A DNA stretch of 64,000 nucleotides from Variovorax guangxiensis (GTDB lineage Bacteria > Pseudomonadota > Gammaproteobacteria > Burkholderiales > Burkholderiaceae_C): contig NZ_RXFT01000023.1 in assembly GCF_003952165.1 (NCBI RefSeq), positions 1-64,000 of the forward strand, read 5' to 3'. Numbering within the stretch: position 1 is the stretch's first letter; each line of letters opens with the position of its first letter. The notes beneath the pieces were generated by a model. The model saw nothing but the letters and a program-made list of their open reading frames with translations, was not told where the DNA came from and did no database searches. Below are positions 5,615 through 26,046 of the stretch, one piece after another. The position numbers and the translations under genes are program-made.

Positions 5615-7504
5615 CTATGCCCCCACCGCCTGCGCCGCCGCCGCACGCTGCGCCTGTATCGCCTGGCGCAGCACGCGCGGCGACACCGGCTTGTAGAGCA
5701 CCGTGATGCCGGCGCTCGCCACCTCGCGCAGGCGGTCGGGCTTGGTCTCTCCGGTCACCAGCAGGCGCGCGGTGCCGGCGCCGATGCCGCGCGGATGGCG
5801 CTCCAGCGCGGCGATCACGTCCAGGCCGTTGTCGCCGCCCTGCAGCAGCAGGTCGCTGATGACCACGTCGGGCGGCTGCGCCCAGCCGTCGGCCATGGTC
5901 AGCGCCTCGGCGCGGGTCTGCGCGGGCAGCACCTCGGCGCCCCAGTTGGAGAGCACCACCGTCAGGCCCTCGAGGATGGTGCGCTCGTCGTCGATCACCA
6001 TGATGCGCACGCCGGCCAGGCTTTCCTCCTCCTCGATGGCGGCGACGGCGGGCGACGCCGCGGGCGCCGGCAGCGCGGCAGGCGCCGAGCGCACCAGCAC
6101 CCGCACGCAGGTGCCCTTGTGCAGCTTCGAGCTCAGTTCCACGCGCGTGTTGAGCAGCTCGGCCAGCCGCTGCACCGTGGCCAGGCCCAGCCCCATGCCG
6201 CGCGTGCCGCGCGATGCCTGCCGGCTCGCGGGCTCGACCTGGTAGAACTCCTCGAACACCCGCGCCTGGTGGTGCGCGGCGATGCCCACGCCGGTGTCGA
6301 CCACGTCGATGCGCACGCCCCGGCCGCGCCGCCGGGCGCCGATGAGCACGCCGCCCTCGATGGTGTGGCGCAGCGAGTTCGACACCAGGTTGTTCAGGAT
6401 GCGCGAGAGCATCACGTAGTCGCAGCGCACCCACACGTCGGTCTTGCGCACCACCAGCCGCAGGCCCTGCTGCTCGGCCACCGGGCGGAAGTTGCGGCTG
6501 ATCTCCTCGAACAGCCGGTCGAGCGGAAAGTCGATCCACTGCGGCTGCAGCACGCCCGCGTCGAGCTGCGACAGGTTCAGCAGCTCGGAGAAGAGGCGGT
6601 CCAGCGAATCCACGCACTCGCGGATGTGGCCGATGCGCTGCAGCTTCACCGGGTCGCTCTCGCCGTTGGCCAGCCCGTCGGAGAAGAGCGTGAGCGCGTG
6701 CAGCGGCTGGCGCAGGTCGTGGCTCGCGGCTGCCAGCAGCCGGGTCTTGGCCTGGCTGGCCACTTCGAGCAGCTGGTTCTTGCGCGCCAGCTCGGCCGTG
6801 GCCTCGTTGATGCGGCTTTGCAGCAGGCGGTGGCTCTCGGCGAGCGCGCGCGCGGCCTCGTTGAAGCCCTGCTGCAGGTGTCGCACCTCCGCCGTGCCCT
6901 CGATGGCCACGCTCGCGTCCTCGCCCGCGCCCAGCCGGTCGACCGCCTTGCCCAGCGCGCGGATGGGCTCGCTGATGCGCCGCGCCGCCCACCAGCCCGC
7001 CAGGCCCACCCCGAAGAGGCTGATCGCCAGCACCAGCCCCACGTTGAACCACACCGAGCGCCGCGCGCTCTGCACGGCCGCCAGGCTCATCTCGACCATC
7101 ACCTTGCCGTTGTGGCGGCCGTCGTCGCTCACGATGGGCACCACCACCTGCAGGCCCTCGGCGCGGGCGCGGTCGATGGTCTCGGAGTTGGCGACGATCT
7201 CGCCGTCCTCCGTCCAGATCTGCACCTGCTGCACGTTGGGCTGGTAGGTGCCCGACTGGGCGGTGCGCGCCAGCGCGCGGCGGTCCATGCGCGCCAGCGG
7301 CGCCTGCGCCACGGTGGCCACCTGCAGTGCCACGGTCTGCGCGTTGGCCCGCATCAGCTCGGTGAGGTTGCCCAGGTGCTGGCGCGTCAGCACGGCGATC
7401 GCCGCCAGCGTGGCCAGGGCCGCCGGCACCATCGCCAGCAGGATCAGCTGCTGGGCGAAGGTCAGGCGGGCCAGGCCTCGGATGACGCGGAAATTCCAGT
7501 TCAT
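5615..7504 (-). CDS. Second membrane hybrid histidine kinase (HAMP, HisKA, HATPase, receiver)
   Basis: 629 residues. TM1 (about 18-39) and TM2 (about 152-172) flank a periplasmic sensor of about 110 residues. A HAMP linker (R-R-I-S-E-P-I-R-A-L) leads to a coiled coil and the H-box L-L-A-A-A-S-H-D-L-R-Q-P-L-H with H262. The ATPase domain shows the N-box, D-T-G-V-G-I and G-M-G-L-G-L-A. The C-terminal receiver has V-I-D-D-E-R-T and the acceptor in V-V-I-S-D-L. Architecture and H-box nearly match those of the kinase at 2373-4376, so the two look like paralogues. It is divergent from the PhnD-like pair at 7.6-9.8 kb, which may supply its signal. Confidence 0.88.
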   Translation of the reverse strand: MNWNFRVIRGLARLTFAQQLILLAMVPAALATLAAIAVLTRQHLGNLTELMRANAQTVALQVATVAQAPLARMDRRALARTAQSGTYQPNVQQVQIWTEDGEIVANSETIDRARAEGLQVVVPIVSDDGRHNGKVMVEMSLAAVQSARRSVWFNVGLVLAISLFGVGLAGWWAARRISEPIRALGKAVDRLGAGEDASVAIEGTAEVRHLQQGFNEAARALAESHRLLQSRINEATAELARKNQLLEVASQAKTRLLAAASHDLRQPLHALTLFSDGLANGESDPVKLQRIGHIRECVDSLDRLFSELLNLSQLDAGVLQPQWIDFPLDRLFEEISRNFRPVAEQQGLRLVVRKTDVWVRCDYVMLSRILNNLVSNSLRHTIEGGVLIGARRRGRGVRIDVVDTGVGIAAHHQARVFEEFYQVEPASRQASRGTRGMGLGLATVQRLAELLNTRVELSSKLHKGTCVRVLVRSAPAALPAPAASPAVAAIEEEESLAGVRIMVIDDERTILEGLTVVLSNWGAEVLPAQTRAEALTMADGWAQPPDVVISDLLLQGGDNGLDVIAALERHPRGIGAGTARLLVTGETKPDRLREVASAGITVLYKPVSPRVLRQAIQAQRAAAAQAVGA

Positions 7505-7677: not shown

Positions 7678-8703
7678 ATGCGCCGATTCGCCGAGTTTCC
7701 AGCCGCCTGGCTCCGCGCGGCCGCGTTGGCGCTGCTGGCGGTGCTGCCCCTGGCGGCGCCGGCGCAGGGCCATCCGCTGGACGGCCCGGTGCGCTTCGGC
7801 ATCCTGCCGCTGGGGGGCGCCTTCGAGTCGCGCAGCGACTGGGACCCCCTGCTGGCCGAGCTCAGCCGCGCCATCAACCGGCCGGTGAGCGTGCTGTCGG
7901 TCAACTCGTACGAGGCGCTGGAGCAGGCCATCCAGCGCGACGAGGTCGACATGGCCTTCCTCTCGGGAAAGATGGCGCTCGACGCCGTCACCCAGCGCCG
8001 CATGAAGGTGGTGGCGCAGGTGGTGCGCCACGACGGCCTGCCCGGCTACCGGGCACTGCTGCTGTCGCGCAAGGCGCCGCCCTTCAATTCGCTGAAGAAC
8101 CTGCTCGACCAGCCCGATCGCTGGCGGCTCGCGCGCGGCGAGAAGCAGTCGGTGTCGGGCTTCATCGTGCCGCAGCTGCAGCTCTTCCTGCCGAACCACA
8201 TCGCGATGGAGACGCGCTTTCGCAGCGAGATCGTCGGCACCCACCAGGCCACCGCGCTGGCCGTGGCCAATAACGAGGCCGACGTGGCCACCAACAACAC
8301 GGCCGACTTCGAGCGCTTCAAGACGCGCTTTCCGGCCGAGACCGAGCGGCTGCAGGTGCTGTGGGAGTCCGAGCTGATCCCGCACGCGCAGATCGTGGTG
8401 CGGCGCGAATACACGCCCGAGCTGCGCAAGCGCGTGCAGGCCTTCCTGGTCGCCTACGGCCGTGCCAAGGGCCCGCGCGGCGACGCCGAGCGCGTGGTGC
8501 TGAAGTCGCTGCACGACCTGGCCGGCTTCGTGGCCGCCGACAACAGCTCGCTGCAGCCGGCCGCCAGGCTGGCCTACCAGCTGGCGAAGCAGAACGCCAT
8601 GACCGCGCAATGGGTGAACGACGCCGCGCGCGAAGCCCGGCTGCAGCGCATCGAGAGCAGCTACGCCGACCAGGTCAGCGTGCTCAAGGACGTGTCGCCA
8701 TGA
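7678..8703 (+). CDS. PhnD-like periplasmic phosphate/phosphonate-type binding protein, copy 1
   Basis: About 341 residues. The chosen ATG directly precedes a good signal peptide (R-R-F-A-E, then W-L-R-A-A-A-L-A-L-L-A-V-L-P-L-A-A-P-A-Q-G). ATGs at 7618 and 7648 and a TTG at 7591 are in-frame alternatives and none has a clear ribosome site. The mature part shows PhnD-family features: V-R-F-G-I-L-P-L-G-G, an E-V-D-M-A-F-L-S-G-K-M-A segment, G-T-H-Q-A-T-A-L-A-V and A-D-V-A-T-N-N-T. It is followed by a close paralogue with an ATGA overlap. There are no PhnC/PhnE transporter genes nearby, so a role presenting ligand to the divergent hybrid kinase is more likely than import. Confidence 0.8.
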   Translation: MRRFAEFPAAWLRAAALALLAVLPLAAPAQGHPLDGPVRFGILPLGGAFESRSDWDPLLAELSRAINRPVSVLSVNSYEALEQAIQRDEVDMAFLSGKMALDAVTQRRMKVVAQVVRHDGLPGYRALLLSRKAPPFNSLKNLLDQPDRWRLARGEKQSVSGFIVPQLQLFLPNHIAMETRFRSEIVGTHQATALAVANNEADVATNNTADFERFKTRFPAETERLQVLWESELIPHAQIVVRREYTPELRKRVQAFLVAYGRAKGPRGDAERVVLKSLHDLAGFVAADNSSLQPAARLAYQLAKQNAMTAQWVNDAAREARLQRIESSYADQVSVLKDVSP

Positions 8704-9755
8704 GCGTGGGAGCCGGGTTCAGGCGAGCGGCCGCTGTGCTGCTGGCTTTCTTCATAGTCCTGCCTGCCGTGGCCCAGCAGGCGCCCGCGGCCGCCGTTTC
8801 GCCTGCCGAGAAGGGCGCCTCTGCGCCGGCCATCCGGATGATCCGCTTCGGCGTGCTGCCGCTGGGCGGCACCGTCGAGTCGCGTGCGCTGTGGACGCCG
8901 CTCATGAACGACATGGGCCGTTCGCTCGGCATGCCGGTCAGCATGTATTCGGTGCCGACCTATGAAGAGCTCGACCGCGCCATCGGCCGCGACGAGATCG
9001 ACATGGCTTTTCTCTCCGGCAAGATGGCGCTCGACGCCGTGATGCAGCGGCGCATGAAGGTGGTGGCGCAGATCGCGCGGCACCCCGGCATGCCCGAACA
9101 CCGCGCGGTACTGCTGGTGCGCAAGGCCGGTCCGCTCAATACGCTCGAGGGCCTGCTCGCGCAGCCCGAGAAGTGGCGGCTCGCGCGCGGCGACAGCCGC
9201 TCCGTCACCGGCTTCATCGTGCCGCAGAGCCAGCTCTTCCTGCCGAACAACATCGAGATGGAGACGCGCTTTCGCAGCGAGTTCGTCGGTACCCACCAGG
9301 CCACCGCGCTGGCCGTGGCGAATGGCGATGCCGACGTGGCCACCAACAACACCACCGACTTCGAGCGCTTCCGCCAGCAGTTCCCCATCGAGGCCGAGCG
9401 GCTGCAGGTGGTGTGGGAGTCGCAGCCGCCACCCGGCGCGCAGATGGTGGTGCGGCGCGACTTCCCGCCAGAGTTCCAGGCGCGGCTGCAGAACTTCCTG
9501 ACCGGCTACGGCAAGGCCAAGGGCGCGCGCGGCGACGCCGAGCGCGAAGTGCTCAAGAGCCTGCGCGCGGCCTACGGCTATGTCGCGGCCGACGACAGCG
9601 CGCTGCTGCCACAGGCGCTGCTGGAGCGCCAGCTCGGCAGGCAGCACGCCATGGCCGCGTCGTGGGTCAACGAGGCCGCGCGCGAGCAGCGGCTGCAGCG
9701 CATCGAGAAGACCTACGCCGAGCAGGTCGAGACGCTGCGTTCCGCCGCGCGCTGA
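8700..9755 (+). CDS. PhnD-like periplasmic phosphate/phosphonate-type binding protein, copy 2
   Basis: 351 residues, starting at an ATG that overlaps the stop of copy 1 (ATGA). The N-terminus is a signal peptide (F-R-R-A-A-A-V-L-L-A-F-F-I-V-L-P-A-V-A-Q-Q). The mature sequence tracks copy 1 throughout: I-R-F-G-V-L-P-L-G-G, E-I-D-M-A-F-L-S-G-K-M-A, G-T-H-Q-A-T-A-L-A-V-A-N and A-D-V-A-T-N-N-T-T. Most difference is in the signal peptide and the C-terminal third. It is therefore a tandem duplicate kept in frame-coupled order. Two non-identical binding proteins beside one kinase could give heteromeric or dual-ligand sensing; this is inference. Confidence 0.8.
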   Translation: MSVGAGFRRAAAVLLAFFIVLPAVAQQAPAAAVSPAEKGASAPAIRMIRFGVLPLGGTVESRALWTPLMNDMGRSLGMPVSMYSVPTYEELDRAIGRDEIDMAFLSGKMALDAVMQRRMKVVAQIARHPGMPEHRAVLLVRKAGPLNTLEGLLAQPEKWRLARGDSRSVTGFIVPQSQLFLPNNIEMETRFRSEFVGTHQATALAVANGDADVATNNTTDFERFRQQFPIEAERLQVVWESQPPPGAQMVVRRDFPPEFQARLQNFLTGYGKAKGARGDAEREVLKSLRAAYGYVAADDSALLPQALLERQLGRQHAMAASWVNEAAREQRLQRIEKTYAEQVETLRSAAR

Positions 9756-11281: not shown

Positions 11282-12637
11282 ATGAGCACACCTCCCGATC
11301 CTTTTGCCGCCTTCGAGTCGGAGCGCACGGTCATCAAGCCCAAGCCGCGCACGCCGGCCGGCACACCTGCCGCGCCCGCTGCGGCGCCTTTCTTCGGCGG
11401 GGCCGATCCGACGCCGGCCGCCGACGTCGGCGAACTCGGCTTGCTCAACCCGCTGGTGTCGGCCGCCGGCAAGCTGCTGGTGCTGATCGGAAAGCTGCGC
11501 AATCTCGCGCAGCCGCCCAACGTGCCGGCGCTGCGTGCGTCGACCGCCGATGCGGTGAACCAGTTCGATGCCAGCGCGCGCCGCGCGGGCGTGGGCAATG
11601 AATCCGTGCTCGCCGCGCGCTACGTGCTGTGCACCGCGCTCGACGAGGCCGTGGCCAACACGCCCTGGGGCGTGCAGGCCGGCTGGAACAAGCAGAGCCT
11701 GCTGGTGCAGTTCCACAACGAGACATGGGGCGGCGAAAAAGTCTTCCAGCTTCTCGCCAAGCTCGCGCAGGACGTGCCCACGCACCGCCAGCTGCTGGAG
11801 CTGATCTACAGCGTGCTCGCGCTCGGCTTCGAGGGCCGCTACCGCGTGATCGACAACGGCCGCGCGCAGCTCGACTCTGTGCGCCAGCGCCTGGCCGACC
11901 TGATCGCCAAGGACCGTCCACCGGTGGAAGCCGAGCTCTCGCCGCACTGGCGCGGGCAGGGCGCGGGCACGGTGCGGCTGCGCGAGTCGCTGCCGCTGTG
12001 GGTGTTCGCGGCCGGCTTCGCGCTGCTGCTGGCGCTCGCGTGGTTCGGGCTGCGGCTCACGCTGAACTACCGCTCCGACACCACGTACGCCGCAGTGTCC
12101 AGCCTGCGCGCGCCCAACATCCAGATCGCGCCGCCCGCGCTGCCTGCGAAGACGCCGCGCCTCGCGCGCTTCCTGGAGCCCGAGGTGAAGCAGGGCCTCG
12201 TCACCGTGACCGACGAGGCCGACCGCAGCGTGGTGCGCCTGCGCGGCGACTCCTTCTTCGGCTCCGGCAGCGCCGAGCCGATGCCGCAGTCGCTGCCGGT
12301 GCTGCGCCGCATCGGCCAGGCGCTGGCCGAGGTGAAGGGCGAGGTGCTGATCACCGGCCATTCCGACAACCAGCCGATCCGCTCGCTGCGCTATCCGTCG
12401 AACTGGCACCTGTCGGCCGCGCGCGCCGACGCCGTGAAGGGCGCACTCTCCACGCTGGTCGACCCCGCGCGCATGCGCGCCGACGGCAAGGCCGACGCCG
12501 AACCGGTGGCGCCCAACGACACGCCGGCCAACCGCGCGCGCAACCGCCGCGTGGAAGTGGTGCTGCTGACCGGGCCCGAAGGCGTCACGCCCGCGCCGGC
12601 CGCCGCTCCTGCTCCAGCCACGGGAGCGACGAAATGA
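11282..12637 (+). CDS. tssL: T6SS membrane subunit TssL with C-terminal OmpA-like domain
   Basis: 451 residues in the extended (evolved) TssL layout. A Pro/Ala-rich tail leads to a cytoplasmic DotU domain (about 55-235; F-H-N-E-T-W-G-G-E-K-V-F is the DotU signature). One TM helix (about 239-261) anchors it, and a periplasmic OmpA-type peptidoglycan-binding domain (about 310-440) ends with G-H-S-D-N-Q-P-I-R and N-R-R-V-E-V-V. TssL, TssM and TssJ form the envelope-spanning complex; the OmpA domain holds it to the cell wall. The gene overlaps tssM by four bases. A second DotU gene at 58.7-60.0 kb lacks the OmpA domain. Confidence 0.96.
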   Translation: MSTPPDPFAAFESERTVIKPKPRTPAGTPAAPAAAPFFGGADPTPAADVGELGLLNPLVSAAGKLLVLIGKLRNLAQPPNVPALRASTADAVNQFDASARRAGVGNESVLAARYVLCTALDEAVANTPWGVQAGWNKQSLLVQFHNETWGGEKVFQLLAKLAQDVPTHRQLLELIYSVLALGFEGRYRVIDNGRAQLDSVRQRLADLIAKDRPPVEAELSPHWRGQGAGTVRLRESLPLWVFAAGFALLLALAWFGLRLTLNYRSDTTYAAVSSLRAPNIQIAPPALPAKTPRLARFLEPEVKQGLVTVTDEADRSVVRLRGDSFFGSGSAEPMPQSLPVLRRIGQALAEVKGEVLITGHSDNQPIRSLRYPSNWHLSAARADAVKGALSTLVDPARMRADGKADAEPVAPNDTPANRARNRRVEVVLLTGPEGVTPAPAAAPAPATGATK

Positions 12638-15600
12638 TCAAGAAAATCTTCGGCTTCCTTTTCAGCCCGCTGCTGCTCACGCTGCTGGCGCTGATCGTCG
12701 TCGCGCTGCTGATCTGGTGGATCGGCCCGCTGGTGAAGATCGGCTCGCTCGCGCCGCTCGAAAGCGAGACCACGCGCGCCATCGTCATCGGCGTCATCGT
12801 GCTCGTCGTGGTGCTGCGCGCGCTGTACCGCCGCTGGCGCGCCCGCCGTGCGAGCCAGCACCTGACCGACGGCTTGATGAAGGCGCCCGCCGCCAAGGCC
12901 GACGCGCCGGTCAACGGCGAGCAGAAGATCCTCGACACCCGCTTCAGCGAAGCCGTCGCCACGCTCAAGCAGATGCGCATGCACGCCGCGGGCAAGAAGC
13001 CGGGCTGGCGCGACTGGCTTTCCATCTCGGGCGGCAGCTATCTCTACGACCTGCCCTGGTACGTCTTCATCGGCGCGCCGGGCGCGGGCAAGACCACCGC
13101 GCTGGTCAACTCTGGCCTGAGCTTCCCGCTGGCCGAGAAGTTCGGCCCCGGTGCGATCCGCGGCGTGGGCGGCACGCGCAACTGCGACTGGTGGTTCACC
13201 GACGAGGCGGTGCTCATCGACACCGCCGGGCGCTACACCACGCAGGACAGCCACCAGTCGGAAGACAAGAGCGCGTGGGAAGGCTTCCTGGGGCTGCTGA
13301 AGAAGGTGCGCCCGCGCAGGCCGCTGAACGGCGTGTTCCTCACCGTCAGCGTGGCCGACCTGCTGAGCCAGGGCCCCGAGGCGCGTACCCAGCTTGCCGC
13401 ATCGATCCGCGCGCGCCTGCTGGAGCTCGACGGCAAGCTCACCACGCGGCTGCCGGTGTACGTGCTCGTCACCAAGAGCGACCTGCTCTACGGCTTCACC
13501 GACTACTTCGACGACCTCGGCAAGGAGCAGCGCGCGCAGGTCTTCGGCTTCACGCTGCCGGCCGACGAGAACCTGCAGGTGGAGGAGAAGGGGCTTTCGG
13601 CCGCCTTCAACCGCGAGTTCGCGCTGCTGCACAATCGTGTGAACGACGGCCTCATCGCGCGCATGCAGCGCGAGACCGACGGCAACCGCCGCGCGGCGAT
13701 CTTCGGCTTTCCGGCGCAGTTCGGCTCCATCGGCCCGCTGCTGTCGGACCTGCTGGAGCAGGTGTTCACCGGCTCGCGCTTCGCGCAGCCGCCGTGGGTG
13801 CGCGGCGTGTACTTCACCAGCGGCACGCAGGAGGGCAGCCCCATCGACCGCGTGATGGGCAGCCTGGCGCGCAGCTTCGGCATCGAGCGCGCCATGCTCG
13901 CGCCGCAGAAGTCCAGCGGGCGCAGTTACTTCCTCACCTCGCTGCTGCGCGAGGTGGTGTTCCCCGAGCAGCGCCTGGCCGGCGCCGACGTGAAGCTGGA
14001 GCGCCGCCGCCACACGCTGCGCGTGATCGGCGTGACGGCCATGACGCTCGTCACCGTCGGCCTGCTCGCGGCCTGGGGCTACAGCACGCTGCAGAACATG
14101 AACTACCTGAAGTCGGTAGAGGCCCGCGTGGAGCCCGCCCGGCAGAACCTCGCGGCGCTGCCCGCGCGCGTGCAGAACCTGGTCGAGGTGGCGCCCGTGC
14201 TGCAGAGCCTGCGCGACATCTGGAAGACGCCCGACAACCGCCAGGGCGACGAGCCGCTGTCGATGACGCTGGGCCTCTACCAGGGCGACAAGCTCGACGC
14301 GGCCGCCATGCTCACGCACCAGCGCGCGCTGAACGACGCGTTCCTGCCGCAGATCGCCAAGCGCATCGAGGACCAGCTGCGCACCGCGCAGAAGGACAAC
14401 CTCGAATTCACCTACGAGGCGCTCAAGAGCTACCTGATGCTCTACCAGCCCGAGCACTTCGACGCCGAGGCGCTGAAGGCCTGGATCACCCTCGACTGGT
14501 CGCGCAACCTCGACCGCGGCATTCCGGAAGACCAGCGCAAGCAGCTCGAAGACCAGCTCGACGTGCTCATCGCCCAGGGTCCGCCACGCTCGCCGCTGAA
14601 GATGGACGAGAACCTGGTGCGCAGCGTGCGCGCGGTGCTCGCGAGTTATCCGCTGGAGCAGCGCGTGTTCAGCCGCCTGAAGCGCCAGCGCGCCAGCAAG
14701 GACATCCCGGCCTTCAGCGTGGCCACGGCTACGGGCCCCTCGGGCCCGCTGGTGTTCGAGCGCATCAGCGGCAAGCCGCTGTCCGAGGGCGTGCCGGGCA
14801 TGTTCACCTACGACGGCTACCACAAGCGATTCCAGAACGAGGTGGTGGTGCTCACCGGCCTGCTCGCCAACGAAGACCCGTGGGTGCTCGGACAGGACCG
14901 CAATGCCGCCAACCGCCTGCGCGACGCTGCCGCGCTCGGCGCGCTGACCGACCGCGTGCGCCGCCTCTACCTGGAGGAATACGTCAAGCAGTGGGAAGCG
15001 CTGCTCGCCGACGTGCGCCTGATCCGAGTGAACGGCCTGGAGAAGAACATCGAGACCGCGCGCATCCTCTCGGGCGTCGATTCGCCGCTCGCCAACTTCC
15101 TGCGCGCCGTCGTCAAGCAGACCACGCTCATCCCCGCCGCCGACGCCAACAAGGACGTCGTCAGCAAGGCCACCGAGACCGTGCGCAACACCCGCAAGGG
15201 CCTGGAAGACCTGTTCGGCGGCGACCCCGGCCGGCAGGTGGCGCCGGGCAAGCGCATCGAGAGCATCGTGGACGACCGCTTCGAGGCGCTGCGCCGCCTC
15301 GTCACCGCGGGCGGCCCCAACCAGCCCGCGCCCATCGACGACGCGCTGAAGCTCTTCAACGAGGTGTACGTGTACCTCAACGCCGTCGACACGGCCGTGA
15401 AGGGCCGCACCTCGCCGCCGCCCGGCGACGTGGCCGGCAAGCTCAAGTCCGACGCCGGCCGCCTGCCGGAGCCCGTGCGCTCCATGGTCGAGAACCTGAG
15501 CCAGGCCGGCGCCGCGCAGGCCCAGGTGGCCGAACGCGGCAACCTGAGCCAGGACCTGCGCCCCGTCACCGAGTTCTGCGCGCGCGCCATCGCCGGCCGC

Positions 15601-16236
15601 TACCCCTTCGTGCAGAGCAGCAAGCGCGACGTGCTGCCCGAGGACTTCGGCCAGATGTTCGGCCCCGGCGGCCTGATGGACGACTTCTTCCAGAAGCGCC
15701 TGGCCGCCATCGTCGACACCAGCACCCGCCCGTGGCGCTACAAGCCCGTGGCCGAGCGCGGCGCCATCACCACCCAGGCGATCGCGCAGTTCGAGCGCGC
15801 CGCGCGCATCAAGGAAATCTTCTTCCGCGGCGGCGGCAGGGCCCCGTCGATGCGGCTGGACTTCAAGCCGGTGGAAATGGACGCGGGCATCACCCAGTTC
15901 ATCCTCGACGTCGACGGCCAGCTCGTGAAATACGCGCACGGCCCCGTCGTGCCCATGGCCGTGCAGTGGCCGGGCCCGAAGGGCAGCAACCAGGTGCGCA
16001 TCCAGGTCAGCCCGCCATCGACCACCGGCAGCTCCGGCGCAGCCGTGGACGGGCCGTGGGCCCTGTTCCGCGCGCTCGACGACGGGCAGCTCGAAGCGGG
16101 GGATGCGCCCGAGAAGTTCTTCATCACCTTCCAGATCGGGGCGCGCAAGACGCGCTTCGAGGTGACGACCAACAGCGTGCAGCATCCCATTCGCTTGCGC
16201 GAGCTGCGCGAGTTCTCATGTCCGGAGGGGCTGTGA
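12634..16236 (+). CDS. tssM: T6SS membrane subunit TssM (IcmF)
   Basis: 1200 residues, normal for TssM. Two N-terminal TM helices (about 8-29 and 47-64) precede a cytoplasmic NTPase-like domain with an intact Walker A G-A-P-G-A-G-K-T (147-154), a D-T-A-G-R-Y motif and V-T-K-S-D. A third TM helix (about 464-486) leads to the large periplasmic region that binds TssJ and reaches the outer membrane. The start overlaps the tssL stop (ATGA), and the end overlaps tagF. The protein is the backbone of the membrane complex, and ATP/GTP binding has been linked to Hcp recruitment in other systems. All motifs are intact, unlike the short homologue at 57.6 kb. Confidence 0.97.
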   Translation: MIKKIFGFLFSPLLLTLLALIVVALLIWWIGPLVKIGSLAPLESETTRAIVIGVIVLVVVLRALYRRWRARRASQHLTDGLMKAPAAKADAPVNGEQKILDTRFSEAVATLKQMRMHAAGKKPGWRDWLSISGGSYLYDLPWYVFIGAPGAGKTTALVNSGLSFPLAEKFGPGAIRGVGGTRNCDWWFTDEAVLIDTAGRYTTQDSHQSEDKSAWEGFLGLLKKVRPRRPLNGVFLTVSVADLLSQGPEARTQLAASIRARLLELDGKLTTRLPVYVLVTKSDLLYGFTDYFDDLGKEQRAQVFGFTLPADENLQVEEKGLSAAFNREFALLHNRVNDGLIARMQRETDGNRRAAIFGFPAQFGSIGPLLSDLLEQVFTGSRFAQPPWVRGVYFTSGTQEGSPIDRVMGSLARSFGIERAMLAPQKSSGRSYFLTSLLREVVFPEQRLAGADVKLERRRHTLRVIGVTAMTLVTVGLLAAWGYSTLQNMNYLKSVEARVEPARQNLAALPARVQNLVEVAPVLQSLRDIWKTPDNRQGDEPLSMTLGLYQGDKLDAAAMLTHQRALNDAFLPQIAKRIEDQLRTAQKDNLEFTYEALKSYLMLYQPEHFDAEALKAWITLDWSRNLDRGIPEDQRKQLEDQLDVLIAQGPPRSPLKMDENLVRSVRAVLASYPLEQRVFSRLKRQRASKDIPAFSVATATGPSGPLVFERISGKPLSEGVPGMFTYDGYHKRFQNEVVVLTGLLANEDPWVLGQDRNAANRLRDAAALGALTDRVRRLYLEEYVKQWEALLADVRLIRVNGLEKNIETARILSGVDSPLANFLRAVVKQTTLIPAADANKDVVSKATETVRNTRKGLEDLFGGDPGRQVAPGKRIESIVDDRFEALRRLVTAGGPNQPAPIDDALKLFNEVYVYLNAVDTAVKGRTSPPPGDVAGKLKSDAGRLPEPVRSMVENLSQAGAAQAQVAERGNLSQDLRPVTEFCARAIAGRYPFVQSSKRDVLPEDFGQMFGPGGLMDDFFQKRLAAIVDTSTRPWRYKPVAERGAITTQAIAQFERAARIKEIFFRGGGRAPSMRLDFKPVEMDAGITQFILDVDGQLVKYAHGPVVPMAVQWPGPKGSNQVRIQVSPPSTTGSSGAAVDGPWALFRALDDGQLEAGDAPEKFFITFQIGARKTRFEVTTNSVQHPIRLRELREFSCPEGL

Positions 16237-17562: not shown

Positions 17563-19494
17563 ATGACCGACTCCAACGAAGACGACCGCACCCGCGTAGT
17601 CCCCAAGTCAACTCCGCCGTCGCAGCCCACGACGACAGGCGACACCTCCGCCACGGTAATCACGGCAGGTGCCCCCACGAGCATGTCCGGCACAAACCCG
17701 GTAACAAGCCCCGCCACCGGCGCAACGGAAGCCGGCCTCCTCCCCGTAGGCAGCCGCCTCGCAGAATTCGAGATCACAAGAGTCATAGGCCAGGGCGGCT
17801 TCGGAGTCGTCTACGAAGCCTGGGACCACACGCTGGAGCGCGTGGTGGCGATCAAGGAGTACCTGCCGACATCGCTCTCGGCGAGGCAGCAGGACGGCAC
17901 GGTCATCCCGCTGTCGGAGAAGCACCGCGAAACCTTCGACCTCGGCATGCGCAGCTTCATCAACGAAGCCCGCCTGCTCGCCCAGTTCGACCACCCGTCG
18001 TTACTCAAGGTCTACCGCTTCTGGCAGGAAAAGGGCACCACCTACATGGTCATGCCCTTCTACAGGGGCGAGACGCTGCGTGAGGCCCTGGTGTCGATCC
18101 CCGCCGGCGTGGACGAGTCCTGGCTGATCCGCATCATGGACGGCGTCACGCAGGCGCTGGCTGTGATGCACAACGCCAACTGCTATCACCGCGACATCGC
18201 CCCCGACAACATCATCCTGCTCGAAGGCTCGGGCCGCCCGGTGGTGCTGGACTTCGGCGCCGCGCGCCGCGTGATCACCGACAAGACGCAGGCGATCACG
18301 GTCATCCTGAAGCCCGGCTACGCGCCGATCGAGCAGTACGCCGAGATGCCCGACATGTCGCAGGGCGCGTGGACCGACGTGTACGCGCTCGCGGCGGTGA
18401 TGCACGTGGCGGTGTGCGGCCGCGCGCCGCCGCCTTCGGTGGCGCGGCTGCTGTCCGACAGCTATGTGCCGCTCGCGGGCAACGAGATCCTGCGCAAGCG
18501 CTACAGCCCGCGGCTGCTGGAGGCGATCGACGCGGGGCTGGGCGTGCGGCCCGAGCAGCGGCCGCAGTCGATGGCGGAGCTGCGCTCGGCGCTCGACCTG
18601 GAGGTGGGGCACAGCATCGCGCCGGTGCCGCGCACGCAGCCGCCATCGTCGTCCGGCGCGCGCACGTCGATGGGCACGAATGCGGACGCCGCCACGGTCA
18701 TCGCAGGCAAGGCAGGCGGCGGTGCGAAGGCGCCTGCGCCCGCGCCCGCTCCGACGGGCAACAAGGGGGGAGGAAGTGGCGGCAGCAACAAGACCGCCGT
18801 CGCCCTCGCTTCCATCGCCGTGCTCGCGGCAGCAGCCGGTGGTGGCTGGTGGTGGTTCCAGGGGCGCGGCGGTGCAGACGACAAGCAGGTCGTCAGCACC
18901 ACGCCGGCTCCGCCGCCCGACACCAAGGTCGCCGAGGCCCCACCGCCCCCACCTCCACCACCACCGCCTCCTCCTCCGGCGCCGCGCACGCCGGCCGAGT
19001 CGCTGCAGTCGCTCGCCACCGGCGCGACGCCCGGCTTCGACGTGACGGCCACGCCGAAGAAAGCCGAGGTCGCCATCGGCAAGGACCGGCTCGCCTTCGA
19101 GGTCCGCAGCAAGCGGGAGGGGTTCGTGTACGTGTTCCTGCTGTCCAGCGGCGGCGAGATGTTCCTGCTCTTCCCGAACCTGCTGGACAAGTACAACAAG
19201 ATCACCGCGGGCGGCACGCTCTCGCTGCCGCGCGCCTCGTGGCCGATGGACGCGGGCGGGCCGGCCGGCACCGACCAGTTCGCGGTGCTGGTGAGCGAGC
19301 ACGAGCGCGACTTCAGCGCCGCCGGCGTGCAGAACGACGGCGTATTCCCGGTGTTCCCGCTGCCCGTGCTGGCCGCGCTGGAGGCCACGCGCGGCACCGG
19401 TCCGTCGCCTCTCCTGGGCAAGCCGGTGTGCGCGCCCAACACCCCGTGCAACGACGTCTACGGCGTCGGCAATTTCAAAATCGTCGAGAAGTAA
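17563..19494 (+). CDS. T6SS-associated serine/threonine kinase (PpkA-type) with periplasmic DUF4384-like domain
   Basis: 643 residues. After a Thr/Pro-rich tail the kinase domain (about 68-350) has the glycine loop V-I-G-Q-G-G-F-G, K98 in V-A-I-K-E-Y, the catalytic loop H-R-D-I-A-P-D-N (D211) and D-F-G (D230). A low-complexity linker leads to one TM helix (about 408-432), a run of 13 prolines, and a C-terminal domain with Y-V-F-L-L-S-S-G-G-E-M-F-L-L-F-P, which I read as DUF4384. PpkA kinases phosphorylate FHA proteins to switch the T6SS on; the FHA protein (49.9 kb) and phosphatase (51.6 kb) are in this locus. AGAGGAG precedes the ATG. The first 80 codons are unusually rich in A and C. Confidence 0.93.
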   Translation: MTDSNEDDRTRVVPKSTPPSQPTTTGDTSATVITAGAPTSMSGTNPVTSPATGATEAGLLPVGSRLAEFEITRVIGQGGFGVVYEAWDHTLERVVAIKEYLPTSLSARQQDGTVIPLSEKHRETFDLGMRSFINEARLLAQFDHPSLLKVYRFWQEKGTTYMVMPFYRGETLREALVSIPAGVDESWLIRIMDGVTQALAVMHNANCYHRDIAPDNIILLEGSGRPVVLDFGAARRVITDKTQAITVILKPGYAPIEQYAEMPDMSQGAWTDVYALAAVMHVAVCGRAPPPSVARLLSDSYVPLAGNEILRKRYSPRLLEAIDAGLGVRPEQRPQSMAELRSALDLEVGHSIAPVPRTQPPSSSGARTSMGTNADAATVIAGKAGGGAKAPAPAPAPTGNKGGGSGGSNKTAVALASIAVLAAAAGGGWWWFQGRGGADDKQVVSTTPAPPPDTKVAEAPPPPPPPPPPPPPAPRTPAESLQSLATGATPGFDVTATPKKAEVAIGKDRLAFEVRSKREGFVYVFLLSSGGEMFLLFPNLLDKYNKITAGGTLSLPRASWPMDAGGPAGTDQFAVLVSEHERDFSAAGVQNDGVFPVFPLPVLAALEATRGTGPSPLLGKPVCAPNTPCNDVYGVGNFKIVEK

Positions 19495-21343: not shown

Positions 21344-22093
21344 ATGATCGAGACGCTGTCGTCCGCGGAAAGCAGTGAACTCGTTCGCCTTTGGCGACGG
21401 CGCCAGACGCTGTCCCCGGGCGAGATGGGCGCCATGTACCGCATCGTCGGCGACGCGCTGGTGGCCTGCAATCCGCCCGAGCTGCAGGTGCTGGGCGAGG
21501 GCCGGCAGGAGCTGGTGGCGCAGTTCATCTACGTGAAGGTGCTGCGGCTCGACGCCGACCCCGACGAGGCCGACGAACGCGCGGGCCACAGCGCACCGTC
21601 CACCGCCTTCGCGCTGTGCGCGTATTTCCGCCGCTATCTCATCGACTGCACGCGCGCCAGTTCCTTCCGCCGCAAGCTCTCCATCGGCGACCAGATCACC
21701 GAGGCGCAACTGGAAGACGAGATCGGCGCCGACGAGGACCTCGAAGGCTGCCTGGCCGAGCACGGCCTGAGCATGCAGGCGGTGCAGCAGGCCGCGCGCG
21801 AGTTCATCGCGGGGCTGCCCGAGCCCGAGCGCCTTCTGCTGTGCGAGGGCTTCGGCAAGGAGGCCGAAGGCGGGCTCTCGGGCATCGCCTCGCGCCATGC
21901 CATCGCTTCCTACCACTACCGCGCGGGCCGGCTGGGCCTGGTGCACAAGCGCGAAGGCCTCACGGCGGACTACGCCAGGACCCGGCTCGGCGGCTGGCTC
22001 CAGCAGACGCTGGGCATCGCCATCGAGCCCGACAACATGGCGGCGATCCTGCAGGTTTTCAAAATCCTCGGTGCTGAAGCGTCTTACGCCTGA
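21344..22093 (+). CDS. Sigma-70-like protein of the T6SS locus (diverged)
   Basis: 249 residues. The middle has A-L-C-A-Y-F-R-R-Y-L-I-D-C-T-R-A, like sigma region 2 (x-R-N-x-x-I-D-x-x-R), followed by S-F-R-R-K. After an acidic linker, A-A-R-E-F-I-A-G-L-P-E-P-E-R-L-L-L, then I-A-S-R-H-A-I-A-S-Y-H-Y-R-A-G-R-L-G-L, resembles region 4.2. It is therefore probably an ECF-type sigma factor or a derivative; the match is weak and a non-sigma DNA-binding protein is possible. The next gene, 27 bp on, encodes a single-pass membrane protein that would suit an anti-sigma factor. No other sigma-like gene lies in the locus. Confidence 0.65.
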   Translation: MIETLSSAESSELVRLWRRRQTLSPGEMGAMYRIVGDALVACNPPELQVLGEGRQELVAQFIYVKVLRLDADPDEADERAGHSAPSTAFALCAYFRRYLIDCTRASSFRRKLSIGDQITEAQLEDEIGADEDLEGCLAEHGLSMQAVQQAAREFIAGLPEPERLLLCEGFGKEAEGGLSGIASRHAIASYHYRAGRLGLVHKREGLTADYARTRLGGWLQQTLGIAIEPDNMAAILQVFKILGAEASYA

Positions 22094-22120
22094 AGACATA
22101 GCCATTCAGGAACAGACGCC

Positions 22121-23299
22121 ATGACCCACGACCTCTGGCCCCCGCTCAGCGTGATACGCCACGCGCTGGAAACGACCGGCGCGGCCGCGATGCCGGACAC
22201 CGGGCCCGAAGGCGAGCCCGGCACGGCCACCGTGGCCATGCCCGGATCACCGCCAGGAACGCCGGCCACGCCCGTCGTTGCCGCGTCCGACCTGTTGATG
22301 CCTCTCACCGAATTGGCCCGGCGCCGCGAGGCTGTCGCCCAGCGAGCCTTCCCGGCCCGCTGGGCGCCGGGCCGCCTCGTCAGCCTGATCTACAGCGGGC
22401 GGCTGCTCGGCGTGCTGCTCGACCGCTGCATCCACGACGACCTGTGGCTGGGGTGGATGGCCGTCGGCGAGGCCGACTGGGCCGGTGCATTCGACGTGCT
22501 GCTCGAGCCCGAGGACGAGCCCTTCGAGCCGATGTTCGGTGTCGTCCAGACGTGGAACGTGCTCACGCTCGAACCCAGCCCGCAGCTCTGCGCGCGCGTG
22601 CTGGGCGAAGTTTCCGCCACGCGGCTCGCGGCCATCCGCGCAGTGCATGACGAGTGGGCCGCGCGCACCGCGTTGGCCATCGCGCCGCAGCCCGGGCGCA
22701 TCGCGCTGCGCGGCGTGGGCGGCGGCGTCTTCTCGGTGCTGTCGGGCACGCCACTCGGGCCGGAAGACCCGCGCACCGACTACCAGGATCTGTACCGCGA
22801 CGTGGGCCTGGAACTCGGCGCCGCGCTGACGCGGCCGCAGAGCGACGAGGCTGCCCCTTCTGCCCCTTCTTCTTCATCTCCATCGCGCGCGCGGCCGCAG
22901 CCCGGCCCCGAGGGCGGCTGGTGGGGCAGCATCCGCCGCTGGTTCGGCGCCGAAGGCTGGGCGCGCCCGGCCTTTGCCGTGCTGGCGCTGGTCGTGGTGG
23001 TCCAGAACGTCGGGCTCATCGGCGGCCGCGGCGCGCCCGAGGACGACGAAGTGCGCTTCCGCGCCGTGCCCACCGCACCGGCGCCCACGCGCGCAGACCT
23101 CGTCGTGCGCTGGAAGCCCGGCGTGCGCATGGACGAGGCCGACAGGCTGCTGCAGTCGGTCTCGGCCGACGTGGTGGGCGGGCCGGGCGGCGATGGCGCA
23201 TGGCACTTGCGTGTGCCGGAGCCCGTCGAGGCGCTGGCAGTGCTCGCGGCCTCGCCGCTGGTGGAATCGGCCGGGCCGGCCAGCGAGCGGCGGCCATGA
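22121..23299 (+). CDS. Single-pass membrane protein, possible anti-sigma-like partner
   Basis: 392 residues. The N-terminal 270 residues have no recognised domain (L-L-D-R-C-I-H-D-D-L-W-L-G-W-M, then E-P-F-E-P-M-F-G). A Ser/Pro-rich linker is followed by one TM helix (about 282-304) and a periplasmic C-terminus of about 80 residues. That end (A-D-L-V-V-R-W-K-P-G-V, L-L-Q-S-V-S-A-D-V-V-G-G-P, A-W-H-L-R-V) resembles the inhibitor-like tail seen in some anti-sigma factors. With the sigma-like gene just upstream and the caspase-like gene coupled downstream (ATGA), a membrane signalling chain is plausible. It is not a proven anti-sigma factor; the cytoplasmic part lacks a zinc-finger motif. Confidence 0.6.
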   Translation: MTHDLWPPLSVIRHALETTGAAAMPDTGPEGEPGTATVAMPGSPPGTPATPVVAASDLLMPLTELARRREAVAQRAFPARWAPGRLVSLIYSGRLLGVLLDRCIHDDLWLGWMAVGEADWAGAFDVLLEPEDEPFEPMFGVVQTWNVLTLEPSPQLCARVLGEVSATRLAAIRAVHDEWAARTALAIAPQPGRIALRGVGGGVFSVLSGTPLGPEDPRTDYQDLYRDVGLELGAALTRPQSDEAAPSAPSSSSPSRARPQPGPEGGWWGSIRRWFGAEGWARPAFAVLALVVVVQNVGLIGGRGAPEDDEVRFRAVPTAPAPTRADLVVRWKPGVRMDEADRLLQSVSADVVGGPGGDGAWHLRVPEPVEALAVLAASPLVESAGPASERRP

Positions 23300-25428
23300 C
23301 ACGCCAAGCCCGTCTGTCTTCCTCCCTCCCCCTCTGGGGGAGGGCAGGGGTGGGGGCACGCGGCGCATTCATCGGGCGCTCTGCCTGCCCCCATCCCGAC
23401 CTTCCCCCAAAGGGGGAAGGAGCAAGGCAACTGCGCTTGCTCCAGGCGTTGCTCATTCTGTGGCTGCTCGCTTGCGGCAGCCTTGCTTTCGCCACGCAGC
23501 GCGCGCTGCTTGTCGGCGTATCCGAACTCGTCAACCAGCCGCAGGCGCTGTGGCTGCAGGCGCCGCGCAACGACGTGATGCTGATGCGCGACGCGCTGCT
23601 CAGGCAGGGCTTTGCCGCGCCCGACATCGCCGTGCTCGCCGACGGCGTGAGCGGCGCGGCACTGCCCGAGTCGCAGGCCATCCACGAGGCGCTGGCGAAG
23701 CTGCTCGCGCAGTCGAGGAGCGGCGACTTCGTGCTGCTGTACTTCTCCGGCCACGGCACGCGGCTGCGCGACATCGTCAAGCGCTACCAGGAGCCCGACG
23801 GGCTCTCGGAGAACTTCCTCGCGCGCGACGTGCGCGGCACGCTGGGCAGCGACAACGCGCTCGCGGGCGATCTGCGCGACGTGGATTTCGATGCGTGGAT
23901 CCAGTCCTTCCTCGCGAAGAACGTGTTCGTGGCCTCGGTGTTCGACACCTGCTCCGCCAACTCCATGACGCGCGGCACGGCGGACGCACCCGCCACCGCC
24001 GAAGGCCCGCCCGACGACGAGGTGCGCTGGCGCGGACTGCGCGCCACGCAGCTCACGGGCGGCGCGCCGCCCGCCCGGCAGCCGGCGCCACCCGCGCCGG
24101 CCGAAGCCGTTCCGCGTGCCCGCTACGTCGCCTTCTTCGCATCGGAAAGCCACCAGATCACGCCCGAGCTGCGGCTGCCGCGCAAGGCGCGAAACGCGAG
24201 GCCGCAGGGCCTGCTGACATGGGCGATGGTCGAAGCCCTTTCGCGAAAACCCGCAACCTGGCGGGAATTGTTCGATGGCGTGCTCGCGCTGTACCCGCCC
24301 GTCATCGACGAACTTGCCCAGCGCTTTCCGACACGCGAGCTGCCGTCCCCGGTGGCCGAAGGCAACCTCGATGCGCCGCTGTTCGCCAACAGCGGCGCTC
24401 CCGCATCCACGCGCCCCGTGTGGCGCGCGCAGCGCAGTGGCGACAGCCTGGCCATCAAGGCGGGCCTGCTCGACGGACTCGCGCAGCAGCAGGAGCTGCG
24501 CGTGCTCGCCACGCTGGACGACGGCACCGTGCGCGGCGCGCCGGCCGCCGTGTCGCAGATCAAGCTCGGCAACGCATGGCTGGCCGTGCCGGCAGCGCTG
24601 AAGGACGTTCCGGGCAGCGCCTTCTGGAGCGTCACGCCGATGGCCGAGCCGGCCGCCACCGCGTTGCGCGTGCGCGCCGACAAGCCGCTGCCAATTGGCC
24701 TGAGCCTCGACTACCCGGCCGCGATCCGCGCGGCGGACGACACGGCCACGGCCGACGTGCGCTGGACCGACCTCGGCGCCTCGGGCCAGCGCCTCGAACT
24801 GCTCGCGCCGCTCTTCGGCGCGAACGTCTCCACCGTGGTGCTGCCCGACACCGCCGCGCTGCGCCGCCGCCTGCAGGCATTGGCGCAGCTGAAGTGGCTC
24901 TCTCAACTGCAGGGCTACGGCAAGGACGGCCAGCTCGACGGCTTCGACGCTGCGCTGGAGGTGTGGAGCGGCGAGCGCATGCTGCGCAGCGTGCCCGTTT
25001 CCCAGGCCGCCAGCGGGCTGCCCGCGACGCGCGCCGGCGAGCGGGTGCGCTTGAACGTGCGCAACACCAGCGGCCGTTCGCTCGACCTCGTCATCGCGGG
25101 CATCGATGCTCGAGGCAATCTGCAGCCGGTCTATCCCGACGAGTCCGGCGAAACCAACCGCTTCAAGCGGGGCACGCCCGAGCAGCCCTCGGTGAAGCGC
25201 TTCGACCTGCCCTGGCTCGATGCGGCGGGCGACGCGCGCCTGCTGGTCATGGCCGTGCCCGCCACGCCCTACAGCGCGCCGCGCCTCTTCGGCGTGGCCT
25301 ATGCGCAGGCCGATGTGTCCGAAGTGCGCGTGCGCGGCGGGCAGCCGCCGGCCGAGAGCGCCGAGCGCCAGGTGTTCACGGCCCTGCTGCGCAGGAGCGG
25401 CACGGCGGACGCGGGGGCCAGGCCATGA
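23296..25428 (+). CDS. Exported caspase-fold (peptidase C14) protein with C-terminal DUF4384-like domain
   Basis: 710 residues from the ATG overlapping the preceding stop (ATGA). A hydrophobic signal or anchor (about 46-66) precedes a caspase p20-like domain starting T-Q-R-A-L-L-V-G-V. The dyad is present: H153 in Y-F-S-G-H-G-T and C219 in V-F-D-T-C-S-A-N-S-M. A p10-like stretch (V-A-F-F-A-S-E) and a long C-terminal half follow, the latter with L-V-I-A-G-I-D-A-R-G-N-L-Q-P-V-Y-P-D, like DUF4384. The export signal places the protease in the periplasm, or tethers it there. Residues 9-43 are encoded by an inserted repeat, so the true start may be later, near the hydrophobic segment. The role in the T6SS is unknown. 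Confidence 0.83.
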   Translation: MTRQARLSSSLPLWGRAGVGARGAFIGRSACPHPDLPPKGEGARQLRLLQALLILWLLACGSLAFATQRALLVGVSELVNQPQALWLQAPRNDVMLMRDALLRQGFAAPDIAVLADGVSGAALPESQAIHEALAKLLAQSRSGDFVLLYFSGHGTRLRDIVKRYQEPDGLSENFLARDVRGTLGSDNALAGDLRDVDFDAWIQSFLAKNVFVASVFDTCSANSMTRGTADAPATAEGPPDDEVRWRGLRATQLTGGAPPARQPAPPAPAEAVPRARYVAFFASESHQITPELRLPRKARNARPQGLLTWAMVEALSRKPATWRELFDGVLALYPPVIDELAQRFPTRELPSPVAEGNLDAPLFANSGAPASTRPVWRAQRSGDSLAIKAGLLDGLAQQQELRVLATLDDGTVRGAPAAVSQIKLGNAWLAVPAALKDVPGSAFWSVTPMAEPAATALRVRADKPLPIGLSLDYPAAIRAADDTATADVRWTDLGASGQRLELLAPLFGANVSTVVLPDTAALRRRLQALAQLKWLSQLQGYGKDGQLDGFDAALEVWSGERMLRSVPVSQAASGLPATRAGERVRLNVRNTSGRSLDLVIAGIDARGNLQPVYPDESGETNRFKRGTPEQPSVKRFDLPWLDAAGDARLLVMAVPATPYSAPRLFGVAYAQADVSEVRVRGGQPPAESAERQVFTALLRRSGTADAGARP
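23322..23422. repeat. Inverted-repeat element with 37-bp arms, inside the caspase-like gene start
   Basis: The arms 23,322-23,358 and 23,386-23,422 are imperfect reverse complements (about 30 of 37 match) around a 27-bp loop. Each arm holds a smaller dyad (CCCTCTGGGGGAGGG; CTTCCCCCAAAGGGGGAAG). It has the look of a mobile GC-rich miniature repeat of beta-proteobacteria. It stays in frame with the caspase-like gene and adds about 35 residues before the signal sequence. Confidence 0.75.
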
Positions 25429-25488: not shown

Positions 25489-26046
25489 ATGGCATTCCTA
25501 GACGACGGCTCCTGGAGCCCTGAAGACGCCCGCCAGTTCTACGAACTGATCGGCACCGGCTCGTCCGAGACCGACCTGGTCATGCTGATCGAGAACAAGG
25601 GCGCGCCGGTCGAAGGCGAGCTGGAGCGCAGCTTCGACGACGGCAAGGCGCGCCTGAACATCGGCGGCTACTACTGGTCGGTGCAGGTGCCCGAGTCTTC
25701 CAGCCAGAACCAGGTGGTGCCCAACAACCTGATCGTCGCGCGCCGCAGCGACGCCGCCACCGCCACCATCGCCAGCCTGCTGCGTGCGCAGGAGAAAGAC
25801 CTGAAGGTGATGATCAGCGCCTTCAAGTCCGGCGGCGACGAGCGCTCGCCCGATGCGCAGTCGACCTTCGAGCTGGTGCTGGAGAACGCGCGCATCTGCC
25901 GGCTGGTGCTGAGCTCGGGCGGCCACTGGGGCGTGCCCTCGGAGCTGATCTCCATCAGCTACCGCACGGTGAAGGTGCGCTCGGCGCCGCAGAAGACCAC
26001 CGGCCTGCGCGGCGCGGTGCGCGAATGCCAGTTCACCCGCGCATGA
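25489..26046 (+). CDS. Diverged Hcp-like T6SS protein
   Basis: 185 residues. The layout fits the Hcp (PF05638) barrel: S-S-E-T-D-L-V-M-L-I-E-N-K-G at the N-terminus, then W-S-V-Q-V, a helix region L-L-R-A-Q-E-K-D-L-K-V-M-I-S, and T-F-E-L-V-L-E-N-A-R-I-C-R-L-V-L-S-S followed by E-L-I-S-I-S-Y-R-T-V-K-V. Identity to the true Hcp at 53.1 kb is low, so it is a remote relative placed by pattern only. It could be a tube cap, an Hcp-binding factor, or a structural subunit of tssE/tssF context. GGAGGTGA five bases before the ATG is the strongest ribosome site in the region, and a T-rich leader (25,436-25,465) precedes it, suggesting high expression. Confidence 0.65.
   Translation: MAFLDDGSWSPEDARQFYELIGTGSSETDLVMLIENKGAPVEGELERSFDDGKARLNIGGYYWSVQVPESSSQNQVVPNNLIVARRSDAATATIASLLRAQEKDLKVMISAFKSGGDERSPDAQSTFELVLENARICRLVLSSGGHWGVPSELISISYRTVKVRSAPQKTTGLRGAVRECQFTRA

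Follow-up and report, generated by a model that had tools for sequence, protein, structure and literature searches.

The 64,000-nucleotide stretch of Variovorax guangxiensis analysed here (the window; contig NZ_RXFT01000023.1, positions 1 to 64,000) carries a type VI secretion system (T6SS) gene cluster that includes genes for a divergent sigma factor of the extracytoplasmic function (ECF) type (SIG), a putative membrane anti-sigma factor (TMI) and an exported protein with caspase fold (CASP). We tentatively propose that CASP cuts TMI after the arginine R314 and thereby frees SIG, most likely for T6SS genes, a model to which we give not quite an even chance of being correct. Its computed basis consists of the sigma relationship of SIG, the predicted folds and topology, the export signal and intact catalytic dyad of CASP, the linkage to the T6SS and the presence of R314, which tracks that of CASP; from these we infer the binding, cleavage, cue and regulon parts. 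The initial annotation had described the three genes as packed between mltA and an Hcp-like gene, with TMI and CASP overlapping by ATGA; the reading frames are present there, and the overlap lies at 23296-23299. The features are as follows:

21344..22093, plus strand: SIG, divergent ECF-type sigma factor, 249 aa
22121..23299, plus strand: TMI, putative membrane anti-sigma factor, 392 aa
22352..22672, plus strand: TMI residues 78-184, cytoplasmic MazF/Kid-fold domain (fold prediction)
22970..23026, plus strand: TMI residues 284-302, transmembrane (TM) helix (hydropathy)
23054..23062, plus strand: TMI R312-F313-R314, candidate CASP cleavage site in the periplasmic linker (conservation)
23090..23284, plus strand: TMI residues 324-388, periplasmic subtilisin-propeptide-like domain (predicted strand-helix-strand-strand-helix-strand; Foldseek)
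23296..25428, plus strand: CASP, exported caspase/metacaspase-fold protease, with a working start possibly downstream of the ATG at 23296 (PF00656, E = 1.2e-9)
23437..23493, plus strand: CASP residues 48-66, hydrophobic core of the signal peptide (hydropathy)
23752..23754, plus strand: CASP H153, catalytic His (55/55)
23950..23952, plus strand: CASP C219, catalytic Cys (55/55)

The first protein had been called sigma-70-like, and profile comparison together with matches among its relatives places it in a divergent sigma family. The comparison with hidden Markov models of sigma factors gave a divided answer: SIG alone remains unmatched, while a profile built from 46 family members and six of these members do match. 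Compared with a profile of ten ECF-size sigma factors from the same genome (10 of the 14 fetched sigma genes passed the length filter), the 46-member profile scores 38.9 (P = 5.7e-5), a value reached by none of 100 column-shuffles, and the alignment is colinear over 145 columns. Regions 2 and 4 of the ECF sigma superfamily are thus recognisable by profile in the SIG family. The six members match the NCBIfam model sigma70-ECF, the best of them with an E-value of 3.9e-5 and covering most of the model, all below the curated cut-off of 42.9 bits. In a structural second look at SIG, RNA-polymerase-sigma or sigma entries appear among the top 45 rows. A relaxed profile search of the host genome returned SIG itself as the sole match, and PDB sequence searches with SIG and TMI gave no sigma or MazF match. 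SIG is very probably a sigma factor or derived from one.

For the second protein, the proposed single-pass topology with an inhibitor-like periplasmic tail is borne out, as hydropathy gives one hydrophobic helix and the tail is predicted to resemble a subtilisin propeptide. Foldseek aligns this tail to 3cnq_P with a probability of 1.00 and a TM-score of 0.73 by target length, but with an E-value of 0.15. The predicted structure of the cytoplasmic part shows a MazF fold. TMI therefore has the layout of a membrane anti-sigma factor, namely a sigma-adjacent gene for a protein whose cytoplasmic and periplasmic parts are joined by one TM helix. The helix is present in 56/56 CASP-bearing loci; these and the other TMI counts leave out L030, L048, L049 and L059, in which TMI is cut by contig ends, and the TMI of L086, whose tblastn match missed the limit, is not in the TM and motif tables (loci and genomes carry our L and G numbers where they have to be told apart). 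The tail of L072 is missed by the tail pattern and visible by eye. Anti-sigma Pfam models gave no match to 24 TMI members, with nothing below an E-value of 0.27, and direct family scans of TMI, including PemK, also returned none; the Pfam matches of the TMI relatives stay at chance level, with PemK not among them. As modelled, TMI would combine the anatomy of a membrane anti-sigma factor with a MazF-fold cytoplasmic domain in place of a recognised anti-sigma domain. SIG and TMI remain neighbours even at about 30% identity in L086, L087 and L090, whose 8-16 kb contigs gave no T6SS match, and their pairing is therefore a wider unit than the T6SS-linked trio. That TMI controls SIG we regard as likely.

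The third protein had been read as an exported caspase-fold protein with intact H153 and C219 (numbered from the ATG at 23296), and both the export signal and the dyad were found. CASP matches PF00656 above its cut-off, metacaspase-4 and -9 are the solved structures closest to it in sequence, and ahead of the first caspase-fold strand there is a hydrophobic signal sequence. The His/Cys dyad is invariant in all 55 CASP sequences (the window, 53 genome loci and L085), and so are D93, S151 and D217. By motif, the latter three can be equated with Asp95, Ser156 and Asp211 of TbMCA2, which are reported as belonging to the S1 pocket of that enzyme; metacaspases and orthocaspases are reported to cleave after Arg or Lys. 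Based on these putative pocket residues and this shared preference, the same specificity is predicted for CASP. At its 5' end, after the ATG of the overlap and ahead of the signal peptide, the CASP frame contains a GC-rich, repeat-like stretch (about 23315-23430, by our reading of the sequence). Mean majority identity amounts to 0.14 for residues 1-30, 0.29 for residues 31-60 and 0.81 for residues 61-90, and in L050, L051, L055 and L073 the frame begins directly at the signal peptide. Since the first 45 or so codons are repeat-like and poorly conserved, the working start may be nearer the signal peptide. In the C-terminal part, DUF4384 matches weakly and below its cut-off (E = 0.061 in the window, 0.0012 in L050, 0.026 in L051); no such match is listed for the CASP of L068 or L085.

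A candidate for the cleaved residue is found in the periplasmic linker of TMI. Residues 301-320 show a predicted local distance difference test score (pLDDT) under 50, and R314 is the sole invariant position of the linker (residues 301-326), being retained in 57/57 CASP-bearing sequences, with R312 in 55 of them; L091 and L092, duplicates of L080 and L081, are left out of this motif count. The R-x-R motif is likewise present in all of the best 120 of 374 TMI homologues in the protein database, most of which have no assigned CASP status, and in the more distant TMI of L085 (36% vs 43-45% identity), which is accompanied by CASP. It is missing from all three CASP-less loci: L078 keeps the TM helix and the tail without the motif, L080 has lost the helix and kept the tail, and L081 has lost both. 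These three loci form one clade with a support of 94/97, the alternative support of 99/100 counting only against two rows without TMI. A search with CASP as query found no CASP homologue elsewhere in the genomes of L080 (G064) and L081 (G027); since this query finds orthologues only and missed the known PF00656 caspases of G158 and G449, its negatives leave room for other caspases. This pattern would be expected of a protease and the site that it cuts and, as far as conservation can tell, makes R314 a cleavage candidate.

The initial annotation had further expected the trio to be linked to T6SS genes in relatives, which the neighbourhood scan confirms. In the window, the order is tssK, tssL, tssM, tagF, ppkA, mltA, SIG, TMI, CASP, hcp-like, impE, tssE, tssF, tssG, clpV, vgrG (clpV by eye). 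Scanning of genome contigs gave 63 loci with SIG, 62 of which contain some T6SS gene and 58 a core tss gene; the 63rd, L045, comprises 3.5 kb with mltA. With a sigma match found and this linkage, neither a missing sigma domain nor a trio scattered away from T6SS genes, the two outcomes that had been named as speaking against the proposal, came true. CASP is present in 55/63 loci, two of these cut by contig ends. In five of the eight loci lacking it the contig ends in or just after TMI (just after TMI in L029, where its absence is uninformative), and three are without it. In G054 (identity of 48% for SIG, 33% for TMI and 38% for CASP) the order is tssA-B-C-hcp-SIG-TMI-CASP-hcpL-impE-tssE-F-G-clpV, and the trio thus sits between two hcp genes in an otherwise standard T6SS order. 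None of 16 comparison T6SS stretches (14-20 kb, tssF at 46-54% identity, one being the second T6SS of this genome) contains a trio gene, and the cassette is therefore seen as a lineage-specific addition. SIG occurs in 8/200 genomes of a family sample, 4/300 of an order sample and 5/398 of a phylum sample (one of the latter weak), each including the window genome. The T6SS linkage applies to the main loci and does not extend to L086, L087, L088, L089 and L090.

A related arrangement recurs with another sigma factor. In G449, the TMI profile matches a protein through TM helix and tail only (E = 8e-10); BLASTP of this protein against TMI gave no match, and the profile alone links the two. Its gene lies directly downstream of an ECF sigma gene (PF04542, just over the cut-off) that the SIG profile misses, the one match of that profile in G449 lying elsewhere. 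The cluster (L207, 3650-8827), which belongs to a Burkholderiales genome, comprises the ECF sigma and the TM-and-tail protein as its putative anti-sigma factor; the genes that follow on the same strand encode a short protein in which a TM helix and a tail of this kind are visible by eye, a permease and, within about 5 kb, a PF00656 caspase. SIG itself stands beside a histidine kinase and a response regulator in G449 and G316, with no TMI found by profile except for the G449 tail match. As a side observation, a gene for a 1141-aa protein, oxidoreductase-like by eye, closely follows SIG on the same strand in G449 (L088, 5653-9980), with no T6SS match in 19.5 kb. G158 has two SIG-TMI pairs, one of which is adjoined by a divergently oriented PF00656 caspase gene. 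Taken with the trio, sigma factor, TM-and-tail protein and caspase hence meet in at least three settings, although tails may also occur without a nearby caspase, L090 perhaps being one.

According to the model that we favour, the MazF-fold cytoplasmic domain of TMI would bind SIG, while one helix would cross the inner membrane and place the propeptide-like domain in the periplasm. A periplasmic cue, such as a disturbance of the cell wall or the T6SS, perhaps read by the C-terminal half of CASP, would lead this metacaspase-like exported protease to cut TMI after the juxtamembrane R314. The cut would start regulated proteolysis and release SIG, which would then most likely raise transcription of its surrounding T6SS cluster. 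That CASP acts on TMI we judge to be an even matter, and that T6SS genes are the targets of SIG to be slightly on the probable side. A bolder version, in which the periplasmic caspase serves as site-1 protease of a sigma/anti-sigma switch, senses injury or an incoming T6SS attack, cuts TMI after one conserved Arg and so turns on the T6SS of its cell, appears rather unlikely to us. If true, the propeptide-like membrane sensor and the caspase, which in G449 accompany an unrelated sigma factor, would represent a general signalling module.

Several results weigh against this model. SIG alone has no Pfam or NCBIfam match up to an E-value of 1, its VIA Z is below 6, and Foldseek gave no match at E <= 0.001 for the models of SIG and TMI. 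The N domain of TMI compared with a 25-sequence PemK profile is not significant (8/100 shuffles score as high), and its relation to MazF is by fold only. In L086 the TM helix falls outside the TMI frame, which ends ahead of it and is followed by a small membrane-protein frame. The absence of CASP looks like a single loss event, and the tracking of CASP by R314 rests on it. In L090, SIG is accompanied by a TMI with TM helix, tail and, close to the membrane, an EFR, but the CASP query found no match in this genome (other caspases were not searched for). Tail distances of TMI do not track CASP beyond the shared background (partial r of 0.15 vs 0.49 for the N domain). Finally, SIG occurs without TMI or CASP in Burkholderiaceae; given this and the SIG-TMI pairs without a T6SS match, the trio is not an obligate unit.

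Alternatively, TMI may stay uncut, its tail binding and restraining CASP or helping it to fold; the targets of CASP would then be T6SS or cell-wall proteins, and SIG-TMI would sense the state of CASP or of the T6SS. Such a role would suit the subtilase-propeptide fold of the tail, since these propeptides are generally known to inhibit their protease, but the proteases concerned are serine proteases, not caspases. It would also suit the co-variation of the CASP C-terminal half with the Hcp-like protein (HcpL), which reaches r = 0.91 in 25 close Variovorax loci. Most of this signal is gone once the background is removed (partial r = 0.23, 52 sequences; L075, which is without mltA, was left out), and we read it as mostly linkage; neighbouring genes may have recombined together. 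The partial r amounts to 0.51 for the last CASP segment, which lies next to HcpL, 0.26 for TssE and 0.04 for ImpE. As restraint by the tail would also leave the conservation of R314 unexplained, we consider this alternative unlikely.

A second alternative, to which we likewise assign a small probability, starts from the EcfK-PknS pair (ECF43) of Xanthomonas citri. There, an ECF sigma factor encoded beside a Ser/Thr kinase in a T6SS region is reported to be tied to T6SS expression. SIG is likewise an ECF-type sigma factor in a T6SS region near a Ser/Thr kinase, and it could be governed mainly by phosphorylation through PpkA and a phosphatase, with TMI and CASP as a second input in Comamonadaceae. 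PpkA is encoded two genes upstream of SIG, and many members of the SIG family have a degraded acidic sigma2.2 motif. SIG is also found at 43-47% identity on replicons of Caballeronia and Paraburkholderia (five records), three of the five near T6SS genes (within 20 kb), the other two without a T6SS core gene within 15-20 kb on each side. In Paraburkholderia PGU19 p1, SIG is flanked by tssA and a PP2C-like gene, and the same 40 kb hold ppkA and mltA but gave no match to TMI or CASP; in Caballeronia grimmiae SIG follows tssJ-K-L-M-tagF-kinase-mltA-response regulator, a histidine kinase being on the other strand; in Caballeronia M1242, hcp, tssE and tssF are within 20 kb. TMI and CASP queries found no match in the Burkholderiaceae SIG stretches, nor did plasmid searches with TMI and with the G449 TM-and-tail protein or its DNA, and the tree shows long branches around these SIG sequences without TMI. 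However, EcfK is activated by phosphorylation and carries the QTTA motif of its group, which lies in region 2.2 and includes the phosphorylated Thr, whereas SIG of the window keeps the acidic E56 and has GRQE (residues 53-56) at the position of QTTA in our own motif alignment, and in Comamonadaceae it is joined by a membrane partner and, in most cases, by a caspase. Moreover, PpkA with TagF, FHA and PP2C is also known as the usual posttranslational switch of T6SSs.

It is very improbable that SIG no longer works as a sigma factor and acts as a sigma-derived scaffold or DNA-binding regulator. This would fit its strong divergence, the degraded acidic motif and the Pfam scan of the 46 members, whose matches include no Pfam sigma family and stay at chance level. 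On the other side, the putative region-4 helix of the 46 members has an invariant S189 and at least 90% conservation of H191, Y192 and R193, F95 and D101 in region 2 are conserved to this degree too, and several members still match sigma70-ECF. Least probable of all is a self-killing or defence device of MazF-like toxin and caspase that is located at the T6SS by chance: the MazF fold and the match of the PADLOC caspase model to CASP (E = 2.9e-9) would allow it, but the position within the T6SS operon is conserved, CASP has an export signal, and the catalytic Arg/Thr pair known from MazF has no counterpart in TMI by eye.

To our knowledge, most bacterial caspase homologues have no established physiological substrate; a caspase with an adjacent candidate substrate and a single candidate cleavage residue represents a directly testable set.

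The principle of anti-sigma cleavage, even by a caspase-clan protease, is already known, as reported for RseA/DegS and Csx30/Csx29. In RseA/DegS, too, a membrane anti-sigma factor is cleaved by an envelope-sensing protease to free the sigma factor; here, in contrast, the protease is caspase-fold and encoded beside its presumed substrate, and the predicted cytoplasmic and periplasmic domains of the latter are MazF-fold and propeptide-like. In the CASP-sigma/Csx30/Csx29 system of type III-E CRISPR, an ECF-like sigma factor is held by an inhibitor that a CHAT protease cleaves, but the system is RNA-triggered, its inhibitor is unrelated and the locus is CRISPR rather than T6SS. ECF54 sigma factors have carboxypeptidase, subtilase and CHAT neighbours, but are discussed as acting without an anti-sigma factor (compared with SIG by description only). 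The initial annotation knew of no T6SS with such a circuit, and none showed in the titles or abstract openings returned by searches of open-licence PubMed Central (PMC) papers; a sigma factor inside a T6SS region as such is already known from EcfK. A literature search on subtilisin prodomain and anti-sigma factor found no paper, and the main text of a review of T6SS regulation (PMC10482370) reports RpoE acting on one T6SS, with anti-sigma, ECF and caspase absent from it. What is new is the combination of a T6SS-embedded sigma factor, a membrane partner with a MazF fold and a propeptide-like domain in the periplasm, and a caspase that is exported. If the model is true, T6SS regulation would gain a sigma switch under protease control, and the anti-sigma factors a MazF-fold domain.

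The host genome of 7.18 Mb holds three T6SSs by VipB count. Among the neighbours of the trio are:

12634-16236: tssM
17563-19494: PpkA, kinase domain, possible TM helix at residues 411-429, DUF4384 beyond the helix
19549-21177: mltA (PF03562 and 3D domain)
25489-26046: Hcp-like gene, HcpL (PF05638, E = 5.5e-5, just over its cut-off)

DUF4384 is common to PpkA and, weakly, to the C-terminal part of CASP, and both may read the same periplasmic signal. HcpL falls into two very different allele groups in close Variovorax (L019-L046), one with 38-46% and the other with 81-99% identity to the window, a division shared by the C-terminal half of CASP. A tandem pair of PF12974 phosphonate-binding-type periplasmic proteins (7678-8703 and 8736-9755) lies directly upstream of tssK. 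In C. grimmiae, an annotated CHAT-domain gene (L216, 16525-18708) adjoins tssJ of the T6SS that contains SIG and no CASP match. A histidine kinase and a response regulator (5615-7504 and 60229-60930) stand at the edges of the T6SS cluster of the window, and their homologues adjoin SIG in C. grimmiae (L212) and in G449/G316 (L088, L089).

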